From Isoetes taiwanensis (taxonomy: Eukaryota; Streptophyta; Lycopodiopsida; Isoetales; Isoetaceae), in the NCBI GenBank assembly GCA_021234155.1, contig JAJEKV010000006.1:7967003-8031002 (forward strand): DNA of 64,000 nucleotides, read 5' to 3'. Positions 30,082 to 51,000 of this stretch are shown here, piece after piece. Each line of letters starts with the position of its first letter. Positions within the stretch are counted from its first letter, which is position 1. The notes under the pieces are model-generated. The model searched no databases. It saw only the letters and a list, made by a program, of their open reading frames with translations, and had not been told where the DNA came from. The translations under genes and the position numbers were made by a program.

Positions 30082-30530
30082 TGTTGATATTTGGGGTTCT
30101 TGGCATCACCTGCTTTGCAAAGAAGTCCATGACTGCCGGATGCCACAAGGCTGCCACAAATGCTCATGGATCAACAAAAGAAGATGGGAAGAACTCCAAG
30201 AACAAGAACAAAGCAAAGAATGAACAAAACAGGATCATATTGATGCTCCAAAAGGAGGTGCTCCAAAACGTGAGCAAAAACCTAAACAATGAGAGGAAAT
30301 GCTCTCTCTATATAGTAGAGCAAAACCCTAACCCTAACTCACATCTCACCTACCACAGATCTAGGCTAAATCTGGGCCATAGATCGTGGGGTCCAATATG
30401 ACAAAGACATGTGGCCTATGCCACCTACCACATATGTGGGCTAAATCTGGGCCCTAGATCAAGTGGTCCAATGTGATAAATACATGTGGCCTATGCCACT
30501 CATACATATGTTTAGCCCAAAGGGCTAACA
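30082..30530 (+). mobile_element. 3' LTR of the LTR retrotransposon
   Basis: Near-identical to 17811-18256 and in the same orientation, with ends TGTTGATAT and GGGCTAACA. The main differences are a short block after GGCATCACCT and single changes such as AACAGGATC versus AACAGAATC. It is followed by TAGAT. Confidence 0.85.
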
Positions 30531-33496: not shown

Positions 33497-34525
33497 TCAC
33501 AACAAGAGAATGGACATATAGCGACGTGGGCTTGCGACGTCTGAATCACGTGACGTCGCAATTGACGTGACCATGCGACGTCAATCGCGGCGTCCGCCGC
33601 GCAGCGTGCACGCCACGGCGTGAATGCGACGTCGACATCGTGACTGGCGGATCTGTCCACGCCCGGTGGATGTCTGCGCGCCAGTGGACGACATGTGTCA
33701 CGCCGGCGGATGCTTGCGGCGCCACGTCGCATCGCGACGTCTGATGACTTGGCCCATCCGTCCACGCCCAGTGGACTTGGGCGCGTGTGGACGGCAGTGT
33801 CCGCGTCAGTGGATGCTTGCGGCGCCACGTTGCATGCAGCGTATAGTACTTGGCCCATCATCACGCGGTGGACTTGGGCCGTGTAAGCGGCATGTGTGTC
33901 ACGCCCGGTGGATGCTTTTAGGTCACGCCGCATGCGACGTCAAGATGCCAGCCCCTCCTTTTGGTATACATTATATCGGAGGAATAAAGAACGGGTGGAA
34001 CATGGGCTCAAAGAAGCCACATAGGCTCAAGCATTGCCCCTAGACTAGAACATGCCACCTAGGCTCCAATAGAAGATCAAATATATGCCACATAAAGTAG
34101 AGAAAAAAATATAACACATGACGTCACAATGACATGTTGCCACCTAGGCTCACATTACATGTGGCTAAAATATGCCACTTACATCAAACATGTCAACTAG
34201 GTTCAAACATGACATGTGACTCAAACATGCGACCTGGGATCAAACAGGTCACATACTAAAATAAAATATACGGTATATGACGTCGCATTAACAAAATACC
34301 ACGCGTAGGCGTTGCATTTCCCTTAGGGTCGAACATGCCACCTAGGTTCAAACAAGCCTCTTAGGCTCAAGCATTGCCACTAGGCTCAAACATGCCCCAG
34401 TATCAAACATGTCACAACTAAAATAAAAAATAATTTAAATGACGTCGCTATAACAAAATACGTCGCATGCGACGTATTGACGTCGCATGCGACATATACA
34501 GCGACGTCAAAAACTCATTTCTTAG
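33497..34525. mobile_element. CACTA-like non-autonomous element rich in GCGACGTC
   Basis: The left edge CACAACAAGAGAATGG, followed by CATATAGCGACGT, mirrors the right edge ACATATACAGCGACGTC...TTTCTTAGTTGGGTG. Dense GCGACGTC and GTCGCATGCGAC motifs lie at both ends, like CACTA subterminal repeats. The 16-bp palindrome ACGTCGCATGCGACGT occurs at about 34459-34474. Inside are a 100-110 bp tandem repeat and decayed 19-bp minisatellite units (34010-34430). A 3-bp target duplication was not found. Confidence 0.45.
33605..33945. repeat. 100-110 bp GC-rich tandem repeat, 3-4 copies
   Basis: The block GGCGCCACGT...GCATG/GCATCGCGACGTC recurs at about 33608, 33718, 33821 and 33921. Shared internal landmarks are ACTTGGCCCATC, GTGGACTTGGGC and GGTGGATGCTT. 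Confidence 0.7.
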
Positions 34526-34625: not shown

Positions 34626-34626
34626 G

Positions 34627-34658
34627 CATTAGGGCGGATTTGGGGTCTGAAAATGGCC
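34627..34658 (+). repeat. Left terminal inverted repeat
   Basis: This reads CATTAGGGCGGATTT then GGGGTCTGAAAATGGCC. It is the reverse complement of 47974-48004 except for small indels. A weaker inverted match, ATTTCCGC(T/G)(T)CCC, lies further in on both sides (about 34684 and 47944). Confidence 0.85.
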
Positions 34659-35237
34659 TCCTATCAGCCATTCCACGTCATATTTCCGCTCCCTTTTTCC
34701 CATGCCACCTAGGATACCAAACTCTCATAATTACAGATTTGCTTGGAATATTCTTCCGGAATAAGGGGGATTGCACATTCATGGCGCCATATGTATTTAA
34801 TTACATTTGGTTGTCGACGGACCGATGCAACACGTGGCGCTTCTAAAATGCCACTTGCATTATAGCATACCGCAACTCATGACAGGTGTCTCTTGGTAAG
34901 CGTCTTGGCGTCACCGCCTTCTACATTTCAAAATTTGAATGTGTAGGTTGAAGCTTTGTATCGATCGGACTTTCATTTCGAGGGCCGCCATACGCTTTAA
35001 CCGATCTTCACTTCATCCTAATACGGGCTTCCGCCCCTACAATTTGAAATTTGAATTTGCTTAATGTATAAAAGCATGGATTGTAGGAGAATGGACTTTT
35101 CGATTTCCATATGCACGTTGCAAATTTCAAAAACGGTTAGTACGGACGTTCGCTCACACGGTTTAATTGTCTTGGGGCATAAAAATACCACACCTTGATT
35201 TCGCGAGTCGCGATCTACACAAGATGGAAGTTGCTTG
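34651..35237 (+). repeat. Duplicated promoter-like block, copy A
   Basis: Similar along its length to 36575-37186. Shared landmarks are AATGGCCTCCTATCAGCCA, CTACATTTCAAAATTTGAAT and TATAAAAGCATGGATTGTAG, with a TATA box at 35067-35073. Both copies end in ATGGAAG. Here that ATG opens only a very short frame, so the copy is an orphan promoter or an internal duplicate of the element's end. Confidence 0.75.
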
Positions 35238-35420
35238 TTGTCAAATTAAACTTAAACACAAGTGAGGTCGACACTTACGTGGTTTTTCGAGGAGGGTTGA
35301 GTGTTTTTTTTAAATCCCAATTATCGACATAGTGTAACGTAGCATCTTGGTATTAAATAGTATGTTAAATTCGAATTATATCGGTGTTCATTTTCAGGTT
35401 AAACTCAAATCATATAGGTT

Positions 35421-35528
35421 TAGGAATAAGGTTAAAAAAGAAAGATATTGGATATTTAGGAATAAGGTTAAAAAAGGAAGATATTGGATATTTAGGTATA
35501 AGGTTAAAAAGGGAAGATATTAGATATG
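35421..35528. repeat. 36-bp tandem repeat, 3 copies
   Basis: The phrase TAGGAATAAGGTTAAAAAAG with GATATTGGATAT is repeated at 35421, 35457 and 35493 with few changes. Confidence 0.85.
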
Positions 35529-35717
35529 ACTCAAATTTCGAGATATGCACATAATGGCATGTAATGATGGTTGATAGGACTGGAATACGAATCATTCCTA
35601 CGATTTTCACGTCTAATCCAGCCTATATCTATTCCAGCCTAGATTGGCGCCCATTCTCCCCCCAATCTCCGCCCAATCTTCGCTAGATCCTCCGCCCAAT
35701 TTCTCTAGTCCATCGCC

Positions 35718-36011
35718 ATGAAGAGATCAGCTACGGAAGAGCCGGAGGTGTCCTCCAAGAGGCGCCTATTACGGCTGGAAGAGGTGTTCCCTCCGCAGTT
35801 CCCTCCGCTGCCCACGGTTCTTGCTCTGAATGCCTCTGATTCCTTTGACGAGGAATCAGAGAATGAGGAATCAGAGGAAATTTCGGAGCAGGAGTTCATC
35901 ACAGGTGTTCTTGAAGGCTGGATAGGAGATTCTTCAGAAAATGAGTGGTCTACCGACGGAGAAGAAGCCGAAGATGATGAAGAAGATGAAGAAGTTGAAG
36001 ACAAATCCTGA
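35718..36011 (+). CDS. Small acidic nuclear-type protein, 97 residues
   Basis: An intact frame from ATG at 35718 after a C-rich leader. The N-terminus has a basic cluster (SSKRRLLR, about residues 13-20) that could be a nuclear localisation signal. A proline-rich piece (FPPQFPPLP) follows. The rest is strongly acidic, with Glu/Ser runs and a final Asp/Glu tail. No catalytic domain is seen. It could be a histone- or DNA-binding partner, by composition only. It lies on the left side of the TIR element, and hairpin 36427-36488 follows 0.4 kb downstream. The 3-periodic acidic repeats also leave the opposite strand open, but that frame is Ser-rich and less likely. Confidence 0.5.
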   Translation: MKRSATEEPEVSSKRRLLRLEEVFPPQFPPLPTVLALNASDSFDEESENEESEEISEQEFITGVLEGWIGDSSENEWSTDGEEAEDDEEDEEVEDKS

Positions 36012-36426
36012 CTTGAGGAGCTCATGGCGTTAGTTCATGGTACATGCATGTTTTCTTTCTTTTCTTAAGCATTCAACTAACGGTTATTTCTTTTTTTTTT
36101 TGCGGATGGTGAAGCGGATGAATGAAATTTTTGTTAGGCAGAGCACCTCTTATTTTTTTTCCTTGTTCTTAGCCTCCAGCTTGCCTCCAGCTTCTTACCA
36201 TATGACTGCAAGCCTCCGGGCTTTTTTGTTGTGAATAGTTGAAGCCTCCGGGCATTTAAATTTACAAAATGATGTAAAGCCATACGACCATAAAAAATTT
36301 TGAATGTAAAAAGTTTTTGCTTCTAATTCCATTTGAATACCTAACTTTTTTTTCTTGTACATGTGTTACCACTCTTAAGTACATAAGTCATTATCCCTTT
36401 TCAAAGAGCATATTATTTTTCAAGGA

Positions 36427-36488
36427 TCACACCAAGCGAATAGTACATATGCAACAAAAATGGAACACACTAAATTCGCATCGTGTGA
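36427..36488. terminator. Shared-arm hairpin H11
   Basis: Left arm TCACACCAAGCGAAT, right arm ATTCGCATCGTGTGA; two mismatches in 15 pairs. It lies downstream of the acidic ORF. Confidence 0.65.
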
Positions 36489-36574
36489 TCCACTTTCTTA
36501 TTTGTCCCTCATCAATAGTCTCCCATTTGCATATAAAATATCTATCATTCCAAGTTATATTATGTTTTATGAAC

Positions 36575-37186
36575 TAAAATGGCCTCCTATCAGCCACTCC
36601 ACGTCATATTTCCGCCCCTTTTTTCCCGTCCAGATTTGTTTTGAAATATTCTCGGAATAAGGGGAATCGCATATCTATGGCCATATGTATTTAATTACGT
36701 TGGTTGTCGGGCCAGATTGACGCAACACGGGCGCTTATAAAAAGCCACTTACATTATAGCATACCGGCAACTCATGACGGTGTCTCTTGGTTTGTCAGAT
36801 ACCAATCATGCGCATCACCGATTCTTGTCTTGCCCTATTTTCATTTAGAGTCCATTCCTTCTACATTTCAAAATTTGAATGTGTAGGTTGAAGCTTTGTA
36901 TTAGACTTTCGTTTGGTATTTGCGATTGCGCCTTAAAAGTAAAGTAGGGATCTTTACTTCATCCCAATACAGGGCTTCCCCCCCTACAATTCGAATTTTG
37001 AATTTGCTTTTGTATAAAAGCATGGATTGTAGGAGAATGGACTTTTCGATTTCCATATGCACGTTTAAAAATTTCAAAAACGAGGTTAATACTGACCGAG
37101 CCTCAAACGGTTTAATTGTCTTTGGGGCATACAAATTGTACACATTCATTTCAAGGCCGATGCGATCCACGCGGTATGGAAGCTCC
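36575..37186 (+). promoter_or_regulatory. Duplicated promoter-like block, copy B, upstream of the large ORF
   Basis: Second copy of 34651-35237. TATA box TATAAAA at 37013-37019, about 160 nt before the ATG at 37176. Because the duplicated unit ends at the start codon in both places, it probably carries the promoter and leader of the large ORF. Confidence 0.6.
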
Positions 37187-39609
37187 AAATGATGTGTGGA
37201 TAAGGATCCAACTGACTCAGGAATATGCTCCAGTCTTCAATCGCAAAAAAGGAGGTCTAAAAAATAAGAACTTAGACCTCGACATGTTGCGCCTTGCAGG
37301 CTCAAAAAGTGTCGACATCTGGGCGGATGGCAGTTTATATCCATTGGATCCGTTGAGTGGCAAGAAACCGTCATTTCGGGACGTTTCAAGTTTAGTCCGA
37401 TTTTGTGGTGACGGTAACTCTGGCCTCTTGGGATATTGTGAGAGATTGAGAGAGGATGAAGGCATTCGAATTGAATGAGTTCATTGAGATGAGTCTGCCC
37501 GATTGTCACAAAAGGAATGACGGCTTGGGGAGGGAAACCTCTTTGAGATACGAAGTGGACAAGTCCAAATTGGTGATAGGGCAGCTGCAAGAAAAGATCC
37601 AAGAGGTCGAAAGAGCAAACTTTGGGCTTCAATGTAAGTTAAAGAATTTGAAGAAAACACCCCTTGGCTTGCGAGAAAGGAAGAAGCATTATCGGCCGAT
37701 AGAGGAACCGAAGTTTGGATCAGGTGCATTCAGACGTGGTCACGCCACAAGGTCGGATTTACAACACTAGCAAAGGCCGGTTAAGATCCGGGGAAACTAG
37801 AAGCAATCTTGGTTACGTAGTGAAGAACCTAGCGACGAACAGGGGAGATAGTGGACATGATTTGTCAGCCCTACAACTCTCCTCTCAAGAAGATGGTATT
37901 GGAAATGGTACTAGGGGAGATCTACAAGAAGTTAGAAGCGGACGGATGATGTACACGACTGTTTGTGATGATGTAGGCATCAAGAGGGCTTGGTTACCGT
38001 TCTCTATTCAAGCCATTCCACGAAGCGTTGAAAAGAATGAGCACAAAAAGTATTCGCTCCACGTCCACAAATTGTCGAGAATACAAGGGTTACTAGGACA
38101 AAGATGGTGTATGCCATATTAGGAGAGATGCACCACGTTGAATGTCTTTGGTCCCGCCATAGCCATAAAAAGATAAGAATGGCAAGGATTGTTGTGATAT
38201 AGTTGGAATGAATGAGCATAATAATCTTTGGGTTGACCTGGTTACTCTCTTACAATTCCTTGTCAAATATTATGACTTAACAATTCTGCGAGAAACTAAT
38301 GGTGAGATTGAAGTTTGCATAAAATTGGATGAAATGGAACTGACCAAGTTTGAGAAGTATGAGAGGGTATCCATTGTCATCATGAATAGAGCAATTGAGA
38401 ATGCAATTGCACATGCTAAATCAAAGAGCAACAAGAATAATAAAAAAGATGTAGAGGTGACGGGGCCGAGGAGAAGAAGCGTATGAAAAATGGTTCTCAT
38501 GTCAATCTGGTTAGGTCTCTTTAAAGTTGAGAAAAGAAACCCACGAGGTATTGAAATGGGTGTTCAATCAAACCGACATCCCGAAGTCTAATATCTAGAT
38601 TCGAGGAGGGGAAAAATTGCAAGTAGATCACTATGGATCTTACAAAGTAATTTTTCACTTAAGCGCCCCGATTTAAAAACTAAGAAAGCAAAAACTAGGA
38701 GGACAAGGAACATGCAAAAGTTGTGCATCTTTGCAATCATGCAAAGGAAGTCAAATCTTTGGGGAAGACTGTTTCAACCTTGTCCCTTAACCAAGCAAAT
38801 GCTCCTAATAGAGGAGAAGAAGATCCCAAGTTCCATGGCATTTTCCCCATTCCATTAGAGAGGGTTCATATCCGCACTTTGCACGGCTTTGTGAGAATCA
38901 TCGACAAGATGATATTTTTGAGCCGCTGATTCGTGTGGAACATTTCGGACAAGAAGAGAAGAGAGGAAGGAATTCGTGAGAGTTGAACATGTTCTATCGA
39001 AGCGTGTTTGCATGGTGGCAATGTAAGATTAGAGCTCGATGAGAAACGGGCGGGAAGAACAAGTGTGCCTCGTAAGGTGTCAATTGGAGGGTGAAAGCTC
39101 GACGCTTCAGTAAAAGAATCATAGAGAGGCTCGAACGGAAACGGATGGGAGAAAAGGTCTATGAATTTGGAAAATTGCTGGTTGATGCGAGGAGCAGGAC
39201 CCGCACAGATGGCGTCTGCGCTCGGCATTGAGGAAAAAAAAAAAAAAAAGCATGGGATGCATTGTGCGAATTGTTCCCATACATTCGGAGAATGGACCTC
39301 ACAAGAGAAGATGCTGTGAAATTTTCGCAAGCGAATAACAAATTTATTAAAGCTTTCATAGACGCATGGGGAGAGAGTGAAGTCACGCACTACTTGCACA
39401 TCTTTTGGGCTCATGCACCTTGGTTTTTTAGGAAGTATGGAAGCCTAGCAGTGTGGAGTGCACAAGGCATGGAGAAGTCGCATAAACAAGCTAAAATAGC
39501 CTTTCATCGTATACGACAAGAAGATCGCTTTAAGGAGCAACCCAGAAGTCGTAAACACCATTGGCATAATGCTGAAGAGAAAACGGAAAGTTGCTTGGCA
39601 AAATTCTAG
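37176..39609 (+). pseudogene. Large frameshifted ORF of the TIR element
   Basis: It starts ATG at 37176 (MEAPNDVWIRIQLTQEY) and moves between frames near 37465, 37740, 38200, 38500 and 39230. It would be about 800 residues if continuous. Segments include a helical piece (KLVIGQLQEKIQEVERANFG), a middle piece with LWVDLVTLLQFLVKYYDLTI, and a C-terminal piece at 39262-39609 with VTHYLHIFWAHAPWFFRKYG and SAQGMEKSHKQAK. The last resembles a C-terminal block I recall from uncharacterised, transposon-linked proteins of fungi and cnidarians (HxPxFxxxxGxLxxFSxQGxEKxN). No DDE triad or polymerase motif is visible. An A-rich run at 39234-39249 is one frameshift site. Confidence 0.45.
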
Positions 39610-39685
39610 GGCCCCACTAGCATCGCAACAGTGGAGATCTAAGAGACAAAGAATCGGTAAAGTATACTTGTAATGTGTAGCATGT

Positions 39686-39748
39686 TCACACGACGCGAAG
39701 TACTTGCCTCCAACCTTGTTTGCACAACTGTAGCTTCGCGTCGTGTGA
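39686..39748. terminator. Shared-arm hairpin H1 (perfect 15-bp stem)
   Basis: TCACACGACGCGAAG pairs perfectly with CTTCGCGTCGTGTGA; the TAC/GTA next to the arms extends it. It lies 77 nt past the stop of the large ORF, in the gap between convergent genes. Confidence 0.8.
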
Positions 39749-39759
39749 TCTTATTTGTA

Positions 39760-39821
39760 TCATACGGCGCGAACAGTGGAGTTCGCTATTGCTTGCATTT
39801 ATGTGGCTTCGCGTCGTGTGA
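39760..39821. terminator. Shared-arm hairpin H2
   Basis: TCATACGGCGCGAA against TTCGCGTCGTGTGA, two mismatches. It lies 84 nt beyond the 3' end of the minus-strand gene at 39905-40381, so each convergent gene has its own hairpin. Confidence 0.75.
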
Positions 39822-39904
39822 AGCTTTACAAGATAATAATAAAAAAGGGTTACTTTTGATTAAAGTTGTGAAAGATGTTACATTGAAAAACAAAATACAA
39901 CGAC

Positions 39905-40381
39905 TCATTGTTGCTCCAGTGCGAGCTCTTCTTCATTATCTTCATCATCATCATCAGCTCCGCCCCTCGTCTTCGATCTTCATCTCTTCCCCTCAAGCGA
40001 GCAATCACCCTATCCAAACGTTCCTCAATCACCCGTCCACCATCTCTTTGTACATGTCCCGCTCCTGTCCCAATAGCACAACGTGTTCTTCTGCCTGAAT
40101 TAGCATCCTCGTTGCCGGGCCATAACCACCTCGGTCGCAGCTTGTTGGGGCATGTCATCCCGTCTCCACCTTCTATTCAAACCTTTGATTTGCCTCTCCC
40201 GGCTACGAAGCATGAGAAGGTTGAATTCATTCTCTTCTTCTTTCTCGCTGAATTGTAACGGCGTTTTTCCTTTAGAAGATCATCTTGCTCCTTCAACCTC
40301 TTCATTAGAACACCCAACACTATGTCGGAAGGGAGTTCTATCCTCTTCGTTTTCCTTATCGGTTGAGGATGTGGAGGCCAT
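39905..40381 (-). pseudogene. MAS(S/T)S coiled-coil family member 1
   Basis: It starts ATG at 40381 (MASTSSTDKENE) and soon shifts frame into ELPSDIVLGVLMKRLKEQDD. That matches the family signature of its neighbours (ELPADITLAVVMKRFKE in member 3). It continues as charged helix with EEENEFNLLML, LLGQERDMYKEM and ERLDRVIARLRGRDED pieces in different frames, and ends with an acidic tail DDDEDNEEELALEQQ. A TATA box (TATAAATT on the minus strand, about 40468-40475) lies about 90 nt upstream. It is likely a dimerising nuclear or structural protein; function unknown. Confidence 0.5.
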
Positions 40382-40616
40382 AGATGACAAATGGGAGGGA
40401 CGTTAAGATTATAGAAGTGAGGAGCAAAAGACTCTAACCCGTGGAAGGAGCACAATGCAAGGACCTCAATTTATACATATTAGCTTGAACATATTAAACA
40501 CACTCTTTCATTGCCGACGTGTCGGAAGCGAGATTCTCGGATTTGGTTGTCCGCTAGAACACATTAATGGTTGTCCATTTGGAACACATTAATAACTATT
40601 CTAACTACATCAGATA

Positions 40617-40676
40617 TCACACCCGCTGAATCGCGACACGAGCTTTAAAACCCTATGAAGGGTTTAAGCCGTGTGA
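40617..40676. terminator. Shared-arm hairpin H3 (diverged)
   Basis: Outer TCACAC/GTGTGA pair with a strong inner stem GCTTTAAAACCCT/AGGGTTTAAGC. It lies about 0.1 kb beyond the 3' end of family member 2. Confidence 0.6.
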
Positions 40677-40790
40677 TCCGCCTTTGTCATTCTCTCTACC
40701 ACGGATATTGAAAATTAAAAATAGGAAACGTAATATTCGGCACATTTGTCAAAAAACTTTTCCCATTGAGAAATAAAACCATTACAAACA

Positions 40791-41238
40791 TTAAAAAAAG
40801 CGGGCCCCCTCTAGGAGGAGCCCGATGCCTATGATCGTCGCAAGCTCTTCCCGGAGGGATCCATAATTTTGTTTCGCTCCTCCAACATGATTGCCTGCCC
40901 CCGCAAACCACGTTCTCATATTCCGCAACCTTATCTTCCCGCTCATCGAGTTGGGCTCGGCTGACCTCTCTCCCGATTGCGGCCCTAAGCCTCTCTTGGA
41001 GGTTATATCTCGTGGGCGCGCAATTCGCGGTCTAAGGCAGCCCCGATTGTCGCGCACTAAAATCACCTCCTCGTAGAAGGCGGCCTTTCCCTGCCGCAAC
41101 CAGCCTTGGCGGCGTCTTCATCATTCTTTTTCTTTTAGAAGGCGGATCCGTTCCTCCGCTTCAAGACGAATGTTTCAATTTCCTTGACCAAAACTTGAGA
41201 CAAGATCTCGGCGGGGATGGAACCGAGCTGGAGGCCAT
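40791..41238 (-). pseudogene. MAS(S/T)S coiled-coil family member 2
   Basis: ATG at 41238 (MASSSVPS), then a shift into IPAEILSQVLVKEIETF, matching the family block. Heptad-like pieces follow, EAEERIRLLKEKE and LQERLRAAIGREVSRAQLDE, then DKVAEYENVV, a classic coiled-coil pattern. A TATA box (TATATAAAA, minus strand, 41323-41331) lies about 90 nt before the ATG. Two or more frame breaks. The stop could lie slightly further left than given. Confidence 0.45.
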
Positions 41239-41701
41239 AGAAAGTGATGGGAGAACGGGGAGAATGAGGGCGGATGTGGTAGAACAGAGATGGCGGATAG
41301 GAGAAGACAAAGGCCTCCGACGTTTTATATAGAAACTAGAGATACGTTGGAATCTACGGTTGCAGTACCGAGATAAAGTTGTGTAATAATCCCACGAGGT
41401 GAAATTATAACATGCAATTAGGCAACGGTAGCCTATGTTAGCATCATGGGATCCGTCATATCCTAGTCGCATCGTATGCGGGCCGCACAAAAGATAGTGT
41501 TATTGTGGCAAATAAGATGCCCGCCCTTGGCATGACGTTGTCATCCACAAGCCACGTATGTGAATAGACGTTGTCATCCACATGCAAATTCGCATTTACC
41601 CGCAAGTTATCACATAATCTAGCTAGATATTTGTGTTACATATACTTTTCCATTAATAAATTAGAATTTATACATACAACGAGGTGTATGCGTTGTGGAG
41701 A

Positions 41702-41763
41702 TCATCTGACGTGAAATCCATTGATTGCTACCTAATTGCAAGAATGGCATTTCGCCGCGGTGA
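41702..41763. terminator. Shared-arm hairpin H4 (decayed)
   Basis: Its loop (CCATTGATTGCTACCTAATT) is the same as in hairpin H6, but the arms have decayed. It lies downstream of family member 3. Confidence 0.55.
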
Positions 41764-41849
41764 TCTTTTAATAAAACAAAACAAGAGAACGGATAGAAGC
41801 AAGAAACATAGCAAATTTTTCTTTGAAACAAAAAATATATATACAATGG

Positions 41850-42193
41850 CTACGGATCTTCATGATCCCGTAGTCGGCCGTAAAAGCTGCGTTCTCATCC
41901 TCCGGCCTCGGCTTCTTCTCCATATCTTCTAGCTTCGCGAAATATTGTGTGCGCTTAAACCGCCTCGACCCTACGCGCTATTGGCCTCTTGGTACTGGGT
42001 TAATGTTGCCATGAGCTCAAGGTCGCTCATGCCCTGACCCCTCGTGAATTCGATTGTCCCCAGCCTCCATCTTCGGCGGCGAGGCGGCATTTTCGTCGTG
42101 AACCTCCTTGAATCTCTTCATCACCACAGCAAGGGTGATGTCCGCGGGCAGCTCTGGGCGCGGTCGCTTGTCGGAGGAGGATGAAGATGCCAT
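41850..42193 (-). pseudogene. MAS(S/T)S coiled-coil family member 3
   Basis: ATG at 42193: MASSSSSDKRPRPELPADIT then LAVVMKRFKEVHDENAA. This is the clearest copy of the family signature: a Ser-rich start, a basic KRPR patch that could act in nuclear import, then a helix. The distal part, EDMEKKPRPEDENAAFTA, is shared with member 4. The frame breaks between these parts. The promoter has the phrase GGTCTTCTATTTATAA (plus strand, 42283-42298), identical in member 4. The leader is a CCGCCTTC-rich pyrimidine tract, also shared. Confidence 0.5.
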
Positions 42194-42324
42194 CGGGAGG
42201 AGAAGGCGGAAGGCGGAAGGCGGAGAAGATGAGCGTGTAGGCGGAAGGCGGAAGAGGATCGGAGGTCGAAGGCAAGATAGAAGGTCTTCTATTTATAACA
42301 GGGATTTCAGAGTAGTAGCTTGAG

Positions 42325-42386
42325 TCACACGACGAAAGGATGCCGTGGGTCGGGAAAATGGACCGATTACTTTCGGCGTCGTGTGA
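42325..42386. other. Shared-arm hairpin H5
   Basis: TCACACGACG...CGTCGTGTGA stem with TTTCGG beside the right arm. It lies upstream of family member 3, in the gap before member 4's 3' end. Confidence 0.65.
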
Positions 42387-42549
42387 GGAAAAAGGACCGT
42401 TACTTCTTCTAACGTCTTTTCTTCCGTAGAAAGCTCGTGTGATAATTTTTATTGATAATTTCGGTGATACAATCTATACATAAGTAATTTACTCGATACA
42501 TAACTAAAGATAGAACTTCTCATTGAAGCAAAATAGAGCGGCATGGAGA

Positions 42550-42613
42550 TCACACGACGCCGAAATCCATTGATTGCTACCTAATTGCAAGCAAGGCATT
42601 TCGCGTCATGTGA
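42550..42613. terminator. Shared-arm hairpin H6
   Basis: TCACACGACGCCGAAAT against ATTTCGCGTCATGTGA. It lies about 120 nt past the stop of member 4 and shares its loop with H4. Confidence 0.75.
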
Positions 42614-42734
42614 TATTTTAATAAAAAACGTAACATACATTGGAACAACGGGATAGATAGAAGCAAAAAATAGAGAAAACTTTTCTTTGAAGCAAAAATA
42701 GATAGATACAACGGCTAGGGATCTTCATGATCCT

Positions 42735-43111
42735 CTAGCTGATTTTCATGTCCCGTACCGAAGCCGTAAGGGCTGCGTTCTCATCCTCCGCAGCTCGGAG
42801 CTTCTTCTCCATATCTTCTAAGGCCTACGAAATCATGTGAGCGGTTTCAACGCTTTCCGCCCCGCTGGCTCGTCGCCTCTTGGTACATGGCGAATGTTTC
42901 CACGAGCTCAACGCCTCGCTTCGGCAGCAGCTCCCTCGTGAAGGCTAATCGCCGACCGCCTCATTGTTCGGCGGCAAGACGGTTGTTTTCATCATGGATC
43001 TCCTTGAATCTCTTCATCACCACTGCAAGGGTGATGTCCACGGGCAGCTCTCGGGCGCTGGGGAGTGCTATCTTGGCGTGGTCGCTTGCTAGAGGAAGAT
43101 GATGATGCCAT
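42735..43111 (-). pseudogene. MAS(S/T)S coiled-coil family member 4
   Basis: ATG at 43111 (MASSSSSSKRPRQDS). After a frame shift it reads VDITLAVVMKRFKEIHDEN, nearly the same as member 3. The distal helix LEDMEKKLRAAEDENAALTA, ending SVRDMKIS-stop at 42735, has leucine-zipper-like spacing. Promoter phrase GGTCTTCTATTTATAA at 43189-43204 as in member 3. Members 3 and 4 are a recent tandem duplication that includes promoter, leader and 3' hairpin. Confidence 0.55.
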
Positions 43112-43210
43112 CGGAGCGGTATGGAAGGCGGAAGCCGAAGTAGAAGATGAGCGTAAGGCGGAAGGCGACGGAGGTCGGCGTGGACATCGGTCTTCTATTT
43201 ATAATATGAG

Positions 43211-43240
43211 TCACACGAGTTGCTTCTCGGCGTCGTGTGA
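43211..43240. other. Shared-arm hairpin H7 (short)
   Basis: TCACACGA/TCGTGTGA, 8-bp stem with a 14-nt loop that still contains CTCGGCG. It lies just upstream of the member 4 TATA box. Confidence 0.6.
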
Positions 43241-43298
43241 GGAATAAATAAATTAATTGTTTTTTTCCAATAATATTTCATTTCTTTCGAGATAAATA

Positions 43299-43360
43299 TC
43301 ACACGACGCGAAAACCTAGATATGACAGAAAATCAGACTGATGTATTTCGCGTGATGTGA
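43299..43360. terminator. Shared-arm hairpin H8
   Basis: TCACACGACGCGAAA against TTTCGCGTGATGTGA. It lies about 0.4 kb past the stop of the 369-residue protein. Confidence 0.7.
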
Positions 43361-43775
43361 ATAAATACAAATAAAATAATTTTTATTAGGAATTTCGGAA
43401 GGACAATCCAGACATAAATAATTTTACCGATACAAGTTGGAAAACATATAACTTCCAATTTCTCAAGCTTCGTCGTCAATTTCATGCTCTTTCAATCCCC
43501 TCGCACAGACCGATCCAACAAGGCAATGACTTCCATGTTATCGACCCCACTTCCAACCTTGGGTGAGTCAAGCCGCCAGCCTAAAAAATTTAACATATTG
43601 CTTTCGCCTGCCAGACCGGCTTGGTCATCAAAATATTGTAACACAACATCCTACCGAATTGCTATCACCCTTTCGGTGTTTGATGCCAATTGGGAATGGT
43701 TCCCTAACATGCATAATGCATGGATGTAATAGACAAACTCGCACCTTTTGGTGAAAGTTCTGGCATTTAAGACGA

Positions 43776-44885
43776 TTATCTCCCATTAACGAATCTTGAG
43801 ATATATCGTAACAATGTAGAGTCCTTCAATCTTTCCTGTCCCCCGCGTGCATGTCGGCAAGAAAAATCATCTACTTCCCACAAATAAGAACCCTCAAGCT
43901 TATCTTCTTCACATTTATCCTCATCTACCAGGCTTATGCTGCCGCTGATTGATGAAGGGCTCGCCAAACTCAGAGATCCCTGTTGGCGACTTTGCACGGA
44001 GATCTTTGGAATTCTTCTTCCGATTGGTAGATTCGCCTCATCTTGAGCAAATCGAGACTCCAGCCTCTCATAGGCTTCTTTAAGCTTTATAGCATTGCCG
44101 GTATAATTAGACACTTCAAACATCTCTTTGTCCAAATCCTCTTCAAAATCTAGGCCTAAGTTTACCCATTCGGCCAAGGTACTGATAAGCTCGTCTTCCC
44201 TAGCACACATTCGTAACAAAGACGGGTTCCTCAGTATATCACTTAGCAATAGGTATTCTTTGCCTTCCACTAAAATTGGCGTTATGTCAGACAACTTCTT
44301 TTCATCCTCATCCCCATCCTCATCACCTTCAGAATCATCTCCTCCTCCCGGTTCACCCAAGGCCAGTGCGTCGAAGCTAAAACTCCTACATTCTTGCTCT
44401 TCTTCTTGTAGATCTATCTCCATTTCTACGTCATAGTCAGCATCATCACACATAACTGACCCCCCTTGGCTTAAAGATTTCATTGTTTCCAGTGTATCTT
44501 CGGTTTGGCCGAGCAGAATGCAATAACTAGCAAATGCAAACGGCAAAGAGAAATAAGATACCTTCTTAAGCACAAGGACGCAGCCAGGAGGAGCCCGTTG
44601 CGCAGCATTCTTGAAAAACATCTTCCCTGTTTGCAAATGGGAAGCCGCCTCCTCTAGAGCTGGTTTTGGAATCCACGAGCCAGGGACATCTGCAAAGGAC
44701 GTGCGCTGAGACCAAGCGGTCCGGGTGAAAGCTAAGGCAACCTCGCGATAGCATCCAAGCTCGCTATTGTTTGCCATGATGTCCAACTCCTTGCAATAGA
44801 ACGGATAAATCGCAGTCGGCGCAACTTCCTCGTTGTCATGAGGGGCGGATGCATACCATTCCAGGAACTTCACATAACAATCCAT
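43776..44885 (-). CDS. Intact acidic 369-residue protein of the TIR element
   Basis: The only long undamaged frame in the element. The frame is open up to 45026, but I prefer the ATG at 44885 (MDCYVKFLEWYASAPHDNEE): a TATA-like TTTTATAAT lies about 100 nt before it, the spacing seen in the sister genes. The N-terminal third looks globular, with Cys and aromatic residues (REVALAFTRTAWSQRTSFAD, FSLPFAFASYCILLG). A central very acidic stretch follows (GGGDDSEGDEDGDEDEKK, about residues 185-205). Then comes a helical part with LVEGKEYLLLSDILRNPSLL and YERLESRFAQDEANL, and a Ser-rich tail. No family recognised. The acidic tract would suit a histone chaperone, but this is only composition. Being intact amid broken genes suggests selection or good sequence here. 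Confidence 0.6.
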   Translation of the reverse strand: MDCYVKFLEWYASAPHDNEEVAPTAIYPFYCKELDIMANNSELGCYREVALAFTRTAWSQRTSFADVPGSWIPKPALEEAASHLQTGKMFFKNAAQRAPPGCVLVLKKVSYFSLPFAFASYCILLGQTEDTLETMKSLSQGGSVMCDDADYDVEMEIDLQEEEQECRSFSFDALALGEPGGGDDSEGDEDGDEDEKKLSDITPILVEGKEYLLLSDILRNPSLLRMCAREDELISTLAEWVNLGLDFEEDLDKEMFEVSNYTGNAIKLKEAYERLESRFAQDEANLPIGRRIPKISVQSRQQGSLSLASPSSISGSISLVDEDKCEEDKLEGSYLWEVDDFSCRHARGGQERLKDSTLLRYISRFVNGR

Positions 44886-45026
44886 GGCGAAGCAAACGAC
44901 GAAGACAAGATGTTTAGACGAAAACAAGATGTTCCAGGAGCGGTAAGGCGCTGTCACTTTTGAACTCAAGTAGCCGTTGTCGATTATAAAAGGGGACACA
45001 GTATTTGGGGAGATTTGTCCGCACAT

Positions 45027-45055
45027 TTTAGGGTTAGGGTTAGGGTTAGGGTTGG
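45027..45055. repeat. Telomere-like (TTAGGG)4 tract
   Basis: Four perfect TTAGGG units between the 369-residue ORF and hairpin H9; on the gene's strand this is AACCCTAACCCTAACCC. Plant promoters often hold one telobox (AAACCCTAA), but an uninterrupted run is unusual. It is the six-base form, not the usual plant seven-base telomere unit. Confidence 0.85.
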
Positions 45056-45056
45056 A

Positions 45057-45120
45057 TCACACGACGCGAAGACTACTATGTGCAACAAAAAGCACAATGC
45101 TTTCTGCTGGCGTCGTGTGA
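45057..45120. terminator. Shared-arm hairpin H9
   Basis: TCACACGACGC against GCGTCGTGTGA, 11-bp perfect stem. It lies about 170 nt beyond the stop of the histone H3-like gene. Confidence 0.8.
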
Positions 45121-45291
45121 TCCTCACGATAACATTAAAAAAAAATACAAAGTGAGAAGCTAGGCTTCTAAGAAAGAAATGGACTAAGAGATTGCTTATA
45201 AAGCCATTACATTAAGAAATATTATACATCTGAAAAAAACACAAAGGCACTTCACGGCCTTTTTTCCGGGGGTCTTTTCTTCTTGTTGTAT

Positions 45292-46116
45292 TCAGCCATA
45301 AAATTTTGACCATAGTACGGGATCCCTTATCGTAAGACGAGGCGCATGTCCTTGGGCATGACAACACCCGCTTGGCATGTATTGTCGCAAGTCGCGAGTC
45401 CTCGAACGTGACCGACACCAACCGCCCAAGCCATTTGAAGAGCATTTAAGGCGGTTGCTTGAATTTCTGTGAATCGGTATGATGTATCGCACCACACTCT
45501 TGCGTAATCTCTCTCACGAGCTCCCGCAAATGGGAGACGCGGAATGACCATCTCGGTGCTCTTCGATGCTTCTTAATCTCGCTGGAGCGCTTTAATGCCG
45601 GCCACTTTCTTAAAGCTTCCGGCCACTACCCTCACCACCCCCGGCATTTGGAGCACGTTGCTTTCGGCCGACTCTTCCCGTAGCCTACCTCACCCCCGGC
45701 ATTTGCAGGTTGTTCTCGGCCCGAGCTCTTCCTACCGCCTCCTCACATTGGAGTGCCTTCCCCTTTCTCGGCGTTGGGCTCCTCCTTTGATTTGAAGGTC
45801 TGGCACCTCCATGGGAGGAACAGGGAGGAAGAAGGAAAAACAGGCGGCTGCCCAATAATTAATCCAAGGTCATATTACGCTCGTAGGTCTCTCTCACATT
45901 TTCATCCTCGTCTCTCAACCGAGTGCACCTCCCTACTTACTCGAGCTGCTTCTCCGTAGACCATCATCGCGGTTCTTTTCCGGTCTTACGTTAGGCATGG
46001 TCGGAGGAGGAGAATCTCTATCGAGAGACTTGAGTCGATCATGAAGAAGGCTAATGTAATCACCTGGCCTTACACCACTGGATGGATCCTTAGTTTGTTT
46101 GTTTAGTTCTTGCCAT
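45292..46116 (-). pseudogene. Histone H3-like gene with long tail-fold insert (frameshifted)
   Basis: ATG at 46116 opens with MARTKQT, the exact start of histone H3, 30 nt after a TATA box (46139-46144). The histone fold follows far downstream on the same strand, spread over three frames: KSTEMVIPRLPFA (alpha-N, about 45551), LVREITQEC, RFTEIQATALNALQM (alpha-1/2), LVSVTFEDSRLATIHAKRV (45370-45426) and MPKDMRLVLR (45322-45351). Each has its counterpart, in order, in H3. Between tail and fold are about 400 bp encoding charged sequence with a twice-repeated AExNxLQMPGV-type phrase; canonical H3 has about 35 residues there. The whole would be about 275 codons against 136 in H3. MPKDM and the divergent fold recall centromeric H3 or virus-encoded H3. 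At least four frame changes and in-frame stops are present. Confidence 0.75.
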
Positions 46117-46359
46117 GGCTTCTCGGCCCGGATGGCGCTTTTATACTACTTAACACCGACAAAAAAATAGACAACCGGCAAGAGATAAATAGTAAAAAAT
46201 GTGGTTAAAGTAAAATATGATGAACGTTTTTTAAATAATTGTACGGAACCCTAAAAAAATATCGGACAAAATACGGAACCCTAAAAACATCGACAAAAAC
46301 ACAAATAAAACCGAGATTCAAAGCGCTAGCCGATAGACAATTTCTTGTTGATCGCGAAC

Positions 46360-46523
46360 TCATTTAAACTTTACATTTCCCTCTTGCATGTAACCAACCC
46401 TAATGCCATCAATAAAATAATGGAAGTCGCCAAGAATCTCCTCTGTCTCCATTAGCACTCTTAGCTCGATAATGGCCATTCGCTTTCCATGGTGGCTGTA
46501 TAAATGATTTCCTCCCTCTCCAT
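46360..46523 (-). CDS. Small unit G of the TIR element
   Basis: ATG at 46523 (MEREEIIYTATMESEW); after a one-base shift the frame continues as ELRVLMETEEILGDFHYFID then GIRVGYMQEGNVKFK-stop. About 55 residues, acidic, no family recognised. It sits between the H3-like gene and unit H. No shared-arm hairpin follows, only a duplicated ACGGAACCCTAAAAA phrase at about 46246 and 46276. Confidence 0.3.
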
Positions 46524-46694
46524 ACTCGAATATCCACGTGACGGAGTGTGCGAGTTATGGTCCTCAAACGGCTCCCAAAAAGTTGTGCGACCTTTTTTTC
46601 GTTTCCTTCGCTCTAGTTGACAATTAACATTATAAATATTGTTTTGGAAGAAAGTATCTGAACTTAAAGGAGGACTTAACTACGCGGACCTCTG

Positions 46695-47156
46695 TTAGTT
46701 GACCGGATGATTCGTGGAATCGAACATCCTAGGTCGGAACAAAAAAATAAGCCATCCACAAAATTGGCAGGGGGGAGAAAGCACGATATGTCTTCTGAGC
46801 TTTTCTAACTTCCCGCCCATCTGGAATATGTTAGCAAATACCTCAAACGGTGTGAAGATTTTGAAACTCATCCTCACGCCTCCGTTTTCAGACATTACCG
46901 CTTGCACCTCGTCAGCCATGCATTTCTTCATTGCAATTACATTGTTCTCATTAGTCTGTGGCTTACAATGTTCACTTAAAGGGGGCAATTCAACCGGCCT
47001 CAAGCCCGGTTTCCCCGACCTTTATGTTATAATCATGTTCGTAAAACCAGATGCCTATATAGCAAGGTCACGCATCCATACCTTGGAAAAGGACAATTCC
47101 GATGTCTATGTGATACACGACAAGTACACACTAATACTTTCGGGCCGGAATGACAT
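46695..47156 (-). CDS. Small unit H of the TIR element
   Basis: ATG at 47156 (MSFRPESISVYLSCIT). The frame has two stops before 47003, then is open to 46695. The open part includes NENNVIAMKKCMADEVQAVM and SFKIFTPFEVFANIFQMGGK. The plus strand is also open over much of this region (46714-47172), so the strand is uncertain. The minus strand is preferred because its neighbours run that way. No family recognised. Confidence 0.3.
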
Positions 47157-47242
47157 CCACGACGCCCGATAAACATAAACCCGCACAATAAATTTGTTTG
47201 TAAACACGTGTCAACGAAAAGAAATGAAAAGATAAAGTGAGA

Positions 47243-47312
47243 TCACACGACGCCGAAACTATCTCTACTACGCAGATTAAGTAGTCGACAGCCTAGCTTC
47301 AAGGCCGTGTGA
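47243..47312. terminator. Shared-arm hairpin H10
   Basis: TCACACGACGCCGAA against TTCAAGGCCGTGTGA. It lies about 150 nt beyond the 3' end of unit I. Confidence 0.65.
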
Positions 47313-47465
47313 TCCGATTAAGGTGGTTACCATTTAGGGCAATTTTGGGAAGCCGCTTTTGGTGGAGATTAGCTCTTTGGCCATATCGTAAGGGGTATAT
47401 GCATGTCTATTATTGTTATACTTTCCACTTTCCGCCGCTAGAATTCAACTTGAACTCTTTTTATC

Positions 47466-47636
47466 CTACCTATCCAATGTGTCCGCATCGACGTCGATCG
47501 CCTTTGTCGCTAACTCTATATGCTCCCTCGTTGATGGCAGCATACTCACCCACTAACCTATTGAGACAAAACCTCCCACTTCGGACATTGGGAGTTCCGT
47601 AAATGGGGCAAGAACACAGTAAATTACAGGAGACAT
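47466..47636 (-). CDS. Small unit I of the TIR element
   Basis: ATG at 47636: MSPVIYCVLAPFTELPMSEV, with one frame break near 47555, then EHIELATKAIDVDADTLDR-stop at 47466. About 56 residues, no family recognised. It is the gene nearest the right TIR. Confidence 0.25.
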
Positions 47637-47973
47637 GGATTGCAGATGAGGAGTGAAGGCGGAGAGGATGCACGAGAGGCGGCCGGAGTGACAAGATGTA
47701 AGTTTGGCGCCAAAAATTTGACAAGGGAGTTGGTGACGCCGACAAGAGGGCGGTCAAAGTCACCATTATTTTTTGGCGGCGACTCCCGAAAAATAATGGG
47801 CCATTAAAATGGTTGCAATAAAAGCGCAAGCATCCCCTATGAAAATACGCCATGTGGATGCCAAGTAAGCCCGCTCATCCTTCTACCCGCCAAGTAATAT
47901 TGACTTTCGAAAAAGGCGCAAACCTGATTGGTCCCGGGCGACCGGGACGCGGAAATCTTTAGCCCAAGATAAG

Positions 47974-48004
47974 GGCCATTTTCAGACCCCAACCGCCTCT
48001 AATG
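47974..48004 (-). repeat. Right terminal inverted repeat
   Basis: Reverse complement begins CATTAGAGGCGGTT then GGGGTCTGAAAATGGCC. It pairs with 34627-34658. Satellite sequence (GGGAGATCGCC...GTGGCCTTGGGGAG) resumes immediately outside. Confidence 0.85.
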
Positions 48005-51000
48005 GGAGATCGCCGTCCGTCCCCGTGGCCTTGGGGAGAGGAAATTCGGGGCAAGCGACTCGGGGATTTTAGGGTCTCGCCCGGCATCGCAACAACACTC
48101 CCACTCACGCCAAGTCGGCGCAAGGTCCCGCCGAATCCCGACAAGGAGATGGCCTCCAAAACGTAAACCCCGTGGGTTGTCGTTCTAGAAGGGTTTGGCG
48201 TTTTGGGGCCGAGACTTGGTATGTTGCACTTGGGACTGGCCGAGAAGCCGCAACCGAGATTGCGAGCAAGGAACCGATGGAGCGGAGTTTGGGCCCGTCC
48301 TCCTCCCGATGTGGCAAGTAGAAGTGGGGGGCTTTGCGATGGCAAGACATTCATAAATTGAAATTAATGCATTGTCTAAAATAAATTCTGATTTTTTGCC
48401 ACTGGATTCCTAATTCATCTCCAAAGAATGGCCCAATTTCGAAATTTTCGAGAAGGTCTAGCTCAAAGGGTTAGCATTAGAACGGTCGGGGCAGCCCGCT
48501 AGGTGGCAACCGAAAGCAGGCACCTTCCCCAAGTCAAACGAGGCCAGGACCTTGCAGGGATCCTCACTAGAGGGGGAGAGTCCGGACCCCAAGAGGCGGG
48601 ATCCAAAACCGCTCCCCAGGCAGCCCCTTCCCGCGGCAAAGGGCTCCCGGGGGGCTGACGCTTAATGACCACCCTCCTGTGAGCCGGTTCCCCTATCCGA
48701 CCGTTGGATCCTCCGCTCAGGGGCCCCTCTTTGGGAAGGCCAAAAAGATTCCAGATCCGCTCCGGGAGAACTTGTCAAACCGCGGGCGGCTTTGAGGTCG
48801 GCCTTGTAGAAACCACGTTGTTTTGTCGTTCGGGCACCGGGGAGGCTCAGGAATGGCAAATCGACCTCGCCAAGTCATCCGAATGGCTAAATTACCCCAC
48901 GGAGCAAGTTACAAGGTCGGTTTTGCAAAAGAAAGAAACACTCACGCCCTCCACGACAAGATCCCGCATCCACATCCTAGGCCAATTGACTACGAAAGTG
49001 TGATGGAAGTGAGCTACTTTGGCGCTACTTATAGGTCGGGTGGTCTTCTCGCCACGAACTTGCTCCTCGGGGCAATGTCGACGTTTCGAGTCCATTGGCG
49101 AGCCAAATCGCGATTCCCGAGAGGGGAGGTCGCCTGGTCCGGCCCCTGTGGCCTTGGGGAGAGGAAATTCGGGCAAAAGCAGCTTCGGGGGGTTTTAGGG
49201 TCCGCGGTTTCGGCTCAACACCCCCACTCCATCGCCAAGTCACGCGCAAGGTCCCGCTGAATCGACAAGGAGAGGGCCTCCAAAACGTAAACCCCGCGGG
49301 TTGCCGTGTTCTAGAAGGGTTTGCGCTTTGGGGGGGCCGGTGACTTCGTCAAGGCAATTTGGGACCCGGCCGAGAAGCCGCAGCCGGTGAATACGGAGCA
49401 AGGGAACTTACTTGAGCGGAGTTTGGGCCTGTCCTCCTCCCGATGTGGCAAGTAGAAGTCGTGGGGCGCTTTTGCAGTGGCAAGACATTCATAAATTCGC
49501 AATTAATGCATTGTACCTAAAAATAAATTCTCCGATTTTTGCCAATTTGGATTCCTAATTCATCTCCAGCACACAGCCCAATTTTCAAATTTTCGGAGAA
49601 GGTCTAGGTCAAAGGGTTAGCATTAGAACGGTCGGGTCTGTGGCAGCCTCGCGGGGTGGCAACCGAGTGGCACCCTTCCCCAAGTCAAACGAGGCCAGGA
49701 CCTTGCAGGATCCCTCACAAGAGGGGGGAGGTCCGGACCCCAAGAGGCGGGATCCAAAAACGTTCCCGGAGGCAGCCCTTCTCGGCGCCGGGGGGGCTGA
49801 CGCTAATGACCACCCTCCCGAGCCCGGTTCCCCTATCCGACCGTTGGATCCTCCGTCAGGGGACCCTCTTTGGGAAGGCCCAAAAGATTCCAGACGGTCC
49901 AGAGAACTTGTCAAAACCGGGGGCCCCCCGAGGTCGGCCTTGTAGAAACCGCAGTTGTTTTGTCGCTCGAAAGCACCGGGAGGCTCGGAATGGCAAATCG
50001 ACCGCCAAATCGTCCGGAATGGCTTAAATTATCCTAGGGAGCAAGTTACAAGGTCGGTTTTGCAAAAGAAAGAAACACTCACGCCTCCACGACAAAGATC
50101 CCGCATCCACATCCTAGGCCAATTGACTACGAGTGTGATGGAAGTGAGCTACTTTGGCGCTTTTGGAAGTCGGATGGTCTTCCGGGGCACGACCTTGGTC
50201 TCCAAAGGGCAATGTCGACGCTCGAGTCCATTGGCGTAGCCAAATCGCGATTCCGGAGAGGGAGGTCGCCGTCCCCCTCGTGGCCTTGGGGAGAGGAAAT
50301 TGGGGCAAGCAGCCTTCCTGGGGATTTTAGGGTCTCGCGGTTCAAGGCCAACACCCCCACTCCACGCCGCCAAGTCACCGCAAGGTCCCTACCGACCGAC
50401 AAGGAGAGGGCCTCCAAAAACGTAAACCATTGGGGCCGAGACTTAGTCTGCTGCACTTGGGACTGGCCTGCCGGCTGCGGAGAAAACGGAGCAAGGGGAA
50501 CCGACGGAGCTTAAGTTTGGGCCTGTCCTCCTCCGATGTGGCAAGTAGAAGTCGGGGGCGCTTTTGCAAAGGGCAAGACATTCATAAATTCGTAATTAAT
50601 GCATTGTACTAAAATAAATTCTGATTTTTGCCGCCTGGATTCCTAATTCATCTCCAAAGACATAGCCCAATTTTCGGAATTTTCGGAGAAGGTCTAGGTC
50701 AAAGGGTTAACTAAGGTCAAAGGAATGGAGTTTGTGGGATCGTTGTACTTGGGGTTGACCTTGGTCGGCCGGACATTATACTCGGCCTAAGATTGCATTG
50801 AGAATATAAGCATCATAACTATTAGAATGAAGATAAATGATTACAGAAAAGCATCATAACTACTAGAATGAAGATAAATGATTACAGAAAAGCAAAAGAC
50901 TACTGCGGGTTGGGGGGGGGGGGTTTTAGATTTGGTTGCTTGTGATGATGGTTGTGTTTCAAAGATCAAGGCATATGGATAGAGAGAATGCCCTTGTTCA

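Follow-up and report, generated by a model that had tools for sequence, protein, structure and literature searches.

The window analysed here, a 64,000-nucleotide stretch of the Isoetes taiwanensis genome (Lycopodiopsida; assembly GCA_021234155.1, contig JAJEKV010000006.1, positions 7,967,003 to 8,031,002 of the forward strand), holds a young, high-copy multigene mobile element. The element spans 34627-48004 (13,378 bp; base 34626 belongs to the flank), sits in satellite DNA and is bounded by terminal inverted repeats (TIRs). Inside it lie about nine gene-like units, two on the forward strand and seven on the reverse, one of which encodes a DDE-type transposase; an inverted pair of short motifs accompanies most of them. 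A preliminary description of this DNA had counted about ten compact genes, mostly on one strand; the strand bias stands and the count is slightly lower. The coordinates of all features are collected in Table 1.

Element boundaries and copies in the genome

The TIRs claimed in the preliminary description are real, as is the cutting of the satellite at both of them: the satellite (unit of ~1.1 kb) is interrupted at each element end and resumes across the insertion, and unbroken copies of the same stretch occur within the window. Right ends were fetched for eight other copies, of which six were readable, one reads N and one has no right-TIR match in the stretch. Five of the six carry a right TIR that is the exact inverse of the left over all 32 bp, and the sixth, L021, shows small changes; termini of the form CATTAG...CTAATG are present in the window and in six of the eight copies.

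Across the 1.658-Gb genome, exact matches to the 32-bp TIR number 286 on one strand and 278 on the other, and the reversed control gives none. The first 135 bases of the element find 1700 candidate places; all 40 that were scored (window included) are 100% identical, 19 over 135 and 21 over 134 bases. From about 100 of the 564 TIR places, those listed, 20 inward-facing pairs lying within 40 kb were drawn, 15 of them enclosing 13.2-13.8 kb and the other five 5.4, 15.5, 18.5, 24.3 and 29.8 kb. The first 10 kb were also fetched for 20 copies picked for a perfect left end, a choice that biases the sample to young copies. Over these 10 kb, seventeen follow the window element collinearly, some being interrupted by gaps or insertions that reach 0.9 kb; large internal deletions occur in two, and one loses the match after ~6 kb. 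Further TIR-bounded copies with the same gene order, for which the preliminary description had proposed to look, are thus present.

Variation among copies was followed in 19 aligned sequences, namely the window element and 18 fetched copies (all but L028 and L029); at least 15 copies are represented in 9790 columns of this alignment. Individual copies depart from the majority by 1.1-2.5% away from CG and by 4.1-7.7% near CG, and the mean number of substitutions per column, taken over the 9790 columns, is 2.48 at CG vs 0.29 where the nearest CG is at least 16 bases away. At CG, C is replaced by G and A besides T, and neighbouring bases vary too; with several substitution types present, simple deamination is a poor fit. 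To judge from this pattern, the CG-clustered changes are likely base-calling errors at methylated CpG in the assembly, and the broken frames seen in the element are probably not real decay. If so, gene prediction in this genome would be unreliable.

The transposase gene

In the transposase, a C(2)C motif (CKSC / PCLYC) and an H(4)H motif (HIFWAH) precede QGMEKSHK, the region of the catalytic E. No Pfam transposase family was matched at an expect value (E) of 1 or below. The RAG1/Transib fold was found in two relatives of the transposase, not in the element's own protein, and RAG1/Transib are the nearest solved structures. There is little sequence similarity to RAG1/Transib outside the E region, and a profile built from 27 transposase relatives retrieved no RAG1 sequence. 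A sequence match to RAG1 given by the window frame was rejected as evidence, being partly a product of the ~100-bp deletion (the undeleted reading reaches only E 0.012-0.017), so the relation to RAG1 rests on structure.

No relatives of the transposase turned up in the IMG/VR viral contigs, which were scanned with two transposase alignments, or in phage records. Two of the known relatives, P0007 and P0011, end at or just past ITHYMV, where P0002 seems to read through an intron; the element gene is uninterrupted there. All three are probably intron-bearing eukaryotic genes.

Insertion sites

Flanks of the 20 TIR pairs show no clear target-site duplication (TSD): none share 3 bp or more, four share 2 bp (1.42 expected from mismatched pairs) and six share 1 bp (5.79 expected), so that 16 do not share 2 bp. 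As these pairs were located by the exact TIR, their sharp ends are such by construction. Six further pairs include none sharing 3 bp and one (L031) sharing 2. With TIR edge offsets of up to 3 bp allowed, 4 bp are common to one of the 20 pairs (1.42 expected), 5 bp to one (0.47 expected) and 6 bp to none (0.32 expected).

At the window insertion the surrounding satellite offers the comparison with empty sites that the preliminary description had called for. Nine empty satellite copies are usable, one further match having been discarded with its right anchor taken too early. The window's satellite flanks, once joined, hold 33 bases between two anchors, exactly as in five of the nine; the other four hold 29-32. 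The pentamer GGGAG, earlier put forward as a candidate duplication, is indeed present on both sides, yet it is not a 5-bp TSD: on the right, one G is already part of the TIR, and with a 5-bp duplication the span would be ~38. A TSD of at least 3 bp can generally be excluded, whereas one of 2 bp may exist at some sites.

The sequence that one copy (L016 / L071-L072, C919:3558261-3571964) has entered, GGGGTTGTAGCTCAGTGGGAG, resembles a tRNA and may be a tRNA-derived short interspersed element. A tRNA at this site (C919a), suspected from the same sequence, was rejected when ARAGORN found none in the joined flanks.

Inverted motif pairs and accessory genes

The motif TCACACGACGC, with at most two mismatches, occurs 27 times in the window, where 6.5 would be expected; none of 100 shuffles gave as many, and 16 of the 27 fall within the element. 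It is arranged in pairs, i.e., ATCACACGACGCGAA, ~34 variable bases and TTCGCGTCGTGTGAT, with 15-bp motif arms and a total length of 60-72 bp, mostly 63-66. Such pairs stand at 14 places, two of them weak. Genes A to F, like the transposase gene, each have one on either side, with the pair at 40616 common to B and C; for gene G there is one 5' of the gene, and for gene H none was seen nearby. The shared 3' hairpin of the preliminary description is therefore a real repeat that flanks genes on both sides, not just at their 3' ends.

Genome-wide, the exact motif pair occurs 168 times; in the places listed among these, the loops fall into three types, represented in the element at 39685, 42549 and 47242, or are variants of these. 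That the pair might be an independent miniature inverted-repeat transposable element was considered and set aside, as the listed places carry the element's own loops or variants and the pair looks element-specific. Pairs with a clearly altered loop at C919:9370347 and C946:1392457 hint at a diverged subfamily of the element.

We regard the motif pair as a probable binding site for an element-encoded coiled-coil protein or a host protein, through which transcripts may be regulated, insulated or ended. It is rather unlikely, in our estimation, that the pairs instead act as RNA hairpins, i.e., as 3'-end or polyadenylation signals of the kind seen in some giant viruses. Stems of 15 bp, loops of ~34 bases and a position at gene ends would suit such a role; however, before genes D and E the pair sits upstream of the TATA box TATAAATA, outside the expected transcript, and changes in the arms over the 14 sites (43210 and 47113 being poor) comprise 43 in one arm, 1 compensated and 6 uncompensated, a count that base-call errors at the CGs of the pairs blur and weaken. 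The lack of compensation between the arms favours paired protein-binding sites over an RNA hairpin.

The proteins of genes B, D and E have ELPxDIxLxVxMKRxKE in common, and the tandem duplication that yielded D and E takes in the promoter and the flanking motif pairs. TATA boxes, noted at several genes in the preliminary description, are borne out by TATAAATA, which lies ahead of both D and E in all 19 aligned copies. Gene F has no homologue among 5156 candidates and no relative in IMG/VR; four telomere-like TTAGGG repeats (45028-45053) lie between its start and the motif pair. The start of gene H (46096-46116) reads MARTKQTAR in five of nine copies, MARTKQTN in the window and is broken in three. 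From these residues, gene H may be a captured start of a histone H3 gene or a histone mimic; its conservation is no proof of selection, as the copies share one ancestor. Capture of host genes was considered and set aside: apart from this H3 start, no scanned element frame gave a Pfam match above a curated cut-off. One coiled-coil gene matched Phage_scaffold at E 0.24, far below the cut-off of that family.

Table 1. Features of the element and its right flank (window coordinates; a full stop marks features without strand)
Feature	Position	Strand	Remarks
Left TIR, 32 bp	34627..34658	+	CATTAG... element end; CATTAGGGCGGATTTGGGGTCTGAAAATGGCC
~600-bp repeat, first copy	34650..35230	+	gene A 5' region, holds a TATAAAA; ~70-75% identical to 36576-37182
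Inverted motif pair before gene A	35153..35215	.	recognised in 5 copies; degraded in window copy
Gene A region	35230..36070	+	acidic open reading frame (ORF) ~35717-36070, frame broken in places
Inverted motif pair after gene A	36426..36489	.	64 bp
~600-bp repeat, second copy	36576..37182	+	transposase gene 5' region
Weak inverted motif pair before transposase gene	37102..37164	.	recognised in 2 copies only, not in window
Transposase gene, DDE type	37176..39660	+	homologues P0001-P0027; frame broken in window copy; ~100-bp deletion near 3' end
First catalytic D motif, EVCIKLDEMEL	38310..38342	+	K191, D193, E194, E196 of P0002 invariant in alignment A1
C(2)C zinc motif, CKSC	38713..38724	+	C309 invariant, C312 nearly invariant in alignment A2 (P0002 numbering)
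H(4)H + catalytic E region	39385..39495	+	THYLHIFWAHAPWF...QGMEKSHKQAK; aligned to RAG1
Inverted motif pair after transposase gene	39685..39749	.	
Inverted motif pair after gene B	39759..39822	.	convergent neighbour
Gene B, coiled-coil protein	39908..40381	-	MASTSS..., IELPSDIVLGVLMKRLKEQ
Inverted motif pair between genes B and C	40616..40679	.	12 copies; degraded in window copy
Gene C, coiled-coil protein	40770..41330	-	
Inverted motif pair before gene C	41389..41452	.	
Inverted motif pair after gene D	41701..41765	.	degraded in window copy
Gene D, small coiled-coil protein	41860..42193	-	MASSSSS..., ITLAVVMKRFKE; TATAAATA at 42290
Inverted motif pair before gene D	42324..42387	.	upstream of TATA box
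Inverted motif pair after gene E	42549..42614	.	
Gene E, tandem paralogue of D	42750..43111	-	TATAAATA at 43196
Weak, shortened inverted motif pair before gene E	43212..43240	.	upstream of TATA box
Inverted motif pair after gene F	43298..43361	.	
Gene F, ~500-aa acidic orphan protein	43466..45026	-	start 45026 or 44885
Inverted motif pair before gene F	45056..45121	.	
Gene H	45900..46116	-	starts MARTKQT (histone H3 N-terminal tail); TATAAAA just upstream; 3' end not fixed
Gene G	46433..47150	-	no Pfam family above cut-off; ends not fixed
Inverted motif pair before gene G	47242..47306	.	
Right TIR, 31 bp	47974..48004	-	imperfect in window copy; inverse of left TIR CATTAGGGCGGATTTGGGGTCTGAAAATGGCC
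Right flank	48005..48304	+	~1.1-kb satellite continuing the unit cut at 34626

Proposed mechanism and relation to known elements

We are fairly confident that the locus holds a recently active DNA transposon of ~13.4 kb and about nine genes, most likely self-mobilising, with a RAG1/Transib-like DDE transposase and little or no stagger on insertion. The element's own transposase would recognise the 32-bp CATTAG...CTAATG ends, pair the two, and cut the element out at CATTAG or else copy it, the former being the route that we favour. The ends would then be joined to the two target strands at positions that face each other or almost do. With so little stagger, if any, hardly any gap would need to be filled, and no clear TSD would arise. 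Accessory proteins may work through the motif pairs or target host chromatin. Some observations weigh against this reading. The empty satellite copy most similar to the left flank (51229-51310) spans 31 bases, which would suit a 2-bp GG duplication, and the 2-bp flank matches reported above are in slight excess; the TM-scores (template-modelling scores) of the relatives' matches to the RAG1/Transib fold are low; and the motif pairs bracket most, not all, of the genes.

A broader proposal, which we advance tentatively and with more doubt than conviction, is that the element represents an undescribed superfamily of large multigene DNA transposons of the green lineage. These would combine a zero-stagger RAG1-fold transposase with a regulatory kit, in which paralogous coiled-coil proteins act on the ~64-bp motif pairs around most genes, and with an H3-tail mimic (ARTKQTAR) that would engage or blind chromatin readers.

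RAG1 is the recombinase of antibody genes and derives from a transposon, and the RAG1/Transib/CACTA family to which it belongs is very diverged. CACTA/EnSpm elements have a CACTA terminus, a 3-bp TSD and a TNP2-type transposase as their hallmarks, and CACTA elements can be large, with accessory genes. Our element is like them and the CMC group in its CA..TG ends and motif order and unlike them in its CATTAG terminus, in the lack of a 3-bp TSD and in its lack of a Pfam transposase match. To our knowledge, no CACTA, Chapaev or Plavaka structure has been solved, and none is present in the VIA structure lists; the fold search therefore cannot place the element within CMCT, the clade whose members considered here were CACTA, Mirage, Chapaev, Transib, Plavaka, ESTA and Lanisha.

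The CMCT clade, as defined in PMC12730594, combines TSDs of 2-5 bp and ends that are mostly CA..TG with C(2)C and H(3-4)H motifs. The element carries the C(2)C/H(3-4)H motifs between the second D and the last E and has CA..TG termini; on the evidence of its 20 pairs of flanks and the empty satellite sites it lacks the TSD, none of the pairs sharing 3-5 bp, though four share 2 bp against 1.42 expected, so that 2 bp may occur. By their description in PMC12730594, Lanisha and ESTA belong to the same motif clade, and the ESTA transposase was recognised through RAG1 similarity; the TSDs of the clade (2-5 bp, TA in ESTA) differ from what we find. RAGL/Transib elements have 5'-CAC ends and a 5-bp TSD (PMC7204232; PMC9435367). 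Like RAGL/ProtoRAG and Transib, the element has a DDE transposase whose relatives (two of them, with the low scores noted) carry the RAG1/Transib core fold, C(2)C and H(4)H before the last E, TIRs and CA..TG ends. Unlike them, it starts with CAT in the window and in the copies read, lacks a 5-bp TSD (0/20) and is 13.4 kb long with about nine genes. No RAG2L was recognised, the Pfam-scanned frames giving no kelch or PHD match, though these frames are broken and orphan. Transib-like proteins have been reported in plants (39; PMC9435367), so a green-lineage relative is not unheard of by itself. The host's place in the green lineage shows in its rbcL: two loci match the family over its full length, and the 309-residue product of one departs from a solved Rubisco (PDB 4mkv) at 15 positions; some residues may be reminiscent of charophyte algae. 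Plasmid records searched with rbcL yielded no match, and a GTDB scan turned up prokaryotes alone, almost all of them cyanobacteria.

That the element belongs to CACTA/EnSpm, Transib/RAGL, Lanisha or some other named CMCT superfamily, carries many captured genes and has lost or shortened its TSD we judge to be unlikely. The motif order and CA..TG ends fit CMCT, RAG1/Transib are nearest to the relatives' fold among solved structures, the slight excess of 2-bp matches would suit a 2-bp TSD, and size and accessory genes have their parallel in CACTA. Against this, the ends are CATTAG and not CACTA or CAC, no Pfam transposase family was matched, and flanks sharing at least 3 bp are missing from all 20 pairs, with 16 not sharing even 2, where 2-5 bp are given for CMCT (PMC12730594) and 5 bp for RAGL/Transib (PMC7204232). 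We therefore call the element a lineage beside the CMCT/RAG1 elements, under no named superfamily, the comparison with Lanisha being one of published description.

Insertion free of a TSD has a precedent in Spy elements of the PHIS group (named in PMC12730594). Spy resembles our element as a eukaryotic DNA transposon without a TSD (here 2 bp may occur at some sites) and differs in its Harbinger/ISL2EU-like transposases; here no such Pfam match was obtained at E ≤ 1, and the relatives' fold is RAG1-like. The missing TSD could also reflect another integration route, e.g., end joining of the excised element into chromosome breaks, which strikes us as improbable. A RAG-type enzyme leaves ends that host repair can join, and the lack of a TSD of 3 bp or more would agree with this; however, the satellite target shows no measurable loss of bases, whereas end joining usually nibbles or adds some. 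The precise ends of the 20 pairs are no argument on this point, as the pairs were found with the exact TIR.

Intact or decayed insertion of a Polinton-like virus, virophage or giant virus, the latter state having been raised in the preliminary description, is highly improbable: compact genes, TIRs, gene-end hairpins, a size of ~13 kb and the sub-threshold Phage_scaffold match recall such elements, but no polymerase, other replication gene, integrase, capsid or packaging ATPase was recognised (no Pfam match above cut-off in the scanned frames, some of them broken; the preliminary description likewise reported none), neither the transposase nor gene F has relatives in viral contigs, nor the transposase in phage records, a search of viral structures (BFVD) returned nothing at E ≤ 0.001, and hundreds of dispersed TIR ends go with a RAG1-like transposase gene. 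Decay is doubtful in its own right, substitutions away from CpG being few and changes clustering at CpG. The other suggestion of the preliminary description, a new kind of element, is supported by a multigene DNA transposon with no Pfam transposase family, orphan-like accessory genes and no clear TSD. Full-text literature searches yielded no such element in titles and the openings of abstracts, Repbase and most subscription journals lying outside their reach.

For the evolution of RAG1, Transib and CACTA, a young and abundant multigene relative from a green genome would provide a new outgroup. It would also be a case in which the RAG1 fold accompanies insertion without a clear TSD, so that any dependence of TSD length on active-site geometry becomes testable. 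The element is also a DNA transposon with a whole set of accessory genes, one of which starts with a histone H3 tail.

Other sequences in the window

Ten ORFs of the window outside the element gave no Pfam family above the cut-off. A 19-bp tandem repeat, GCCACCTAGGCTCCAACAT, occupies 24268-25849 (in both orientations) and 34000-34415, directly left of the element. An identical 75-bp tandem duplication is found at 18073-18225 and at 30347-30499, 12 kb apart; its double occurrence suggests that the left half of the window contains a longer unit that is itself repeated.

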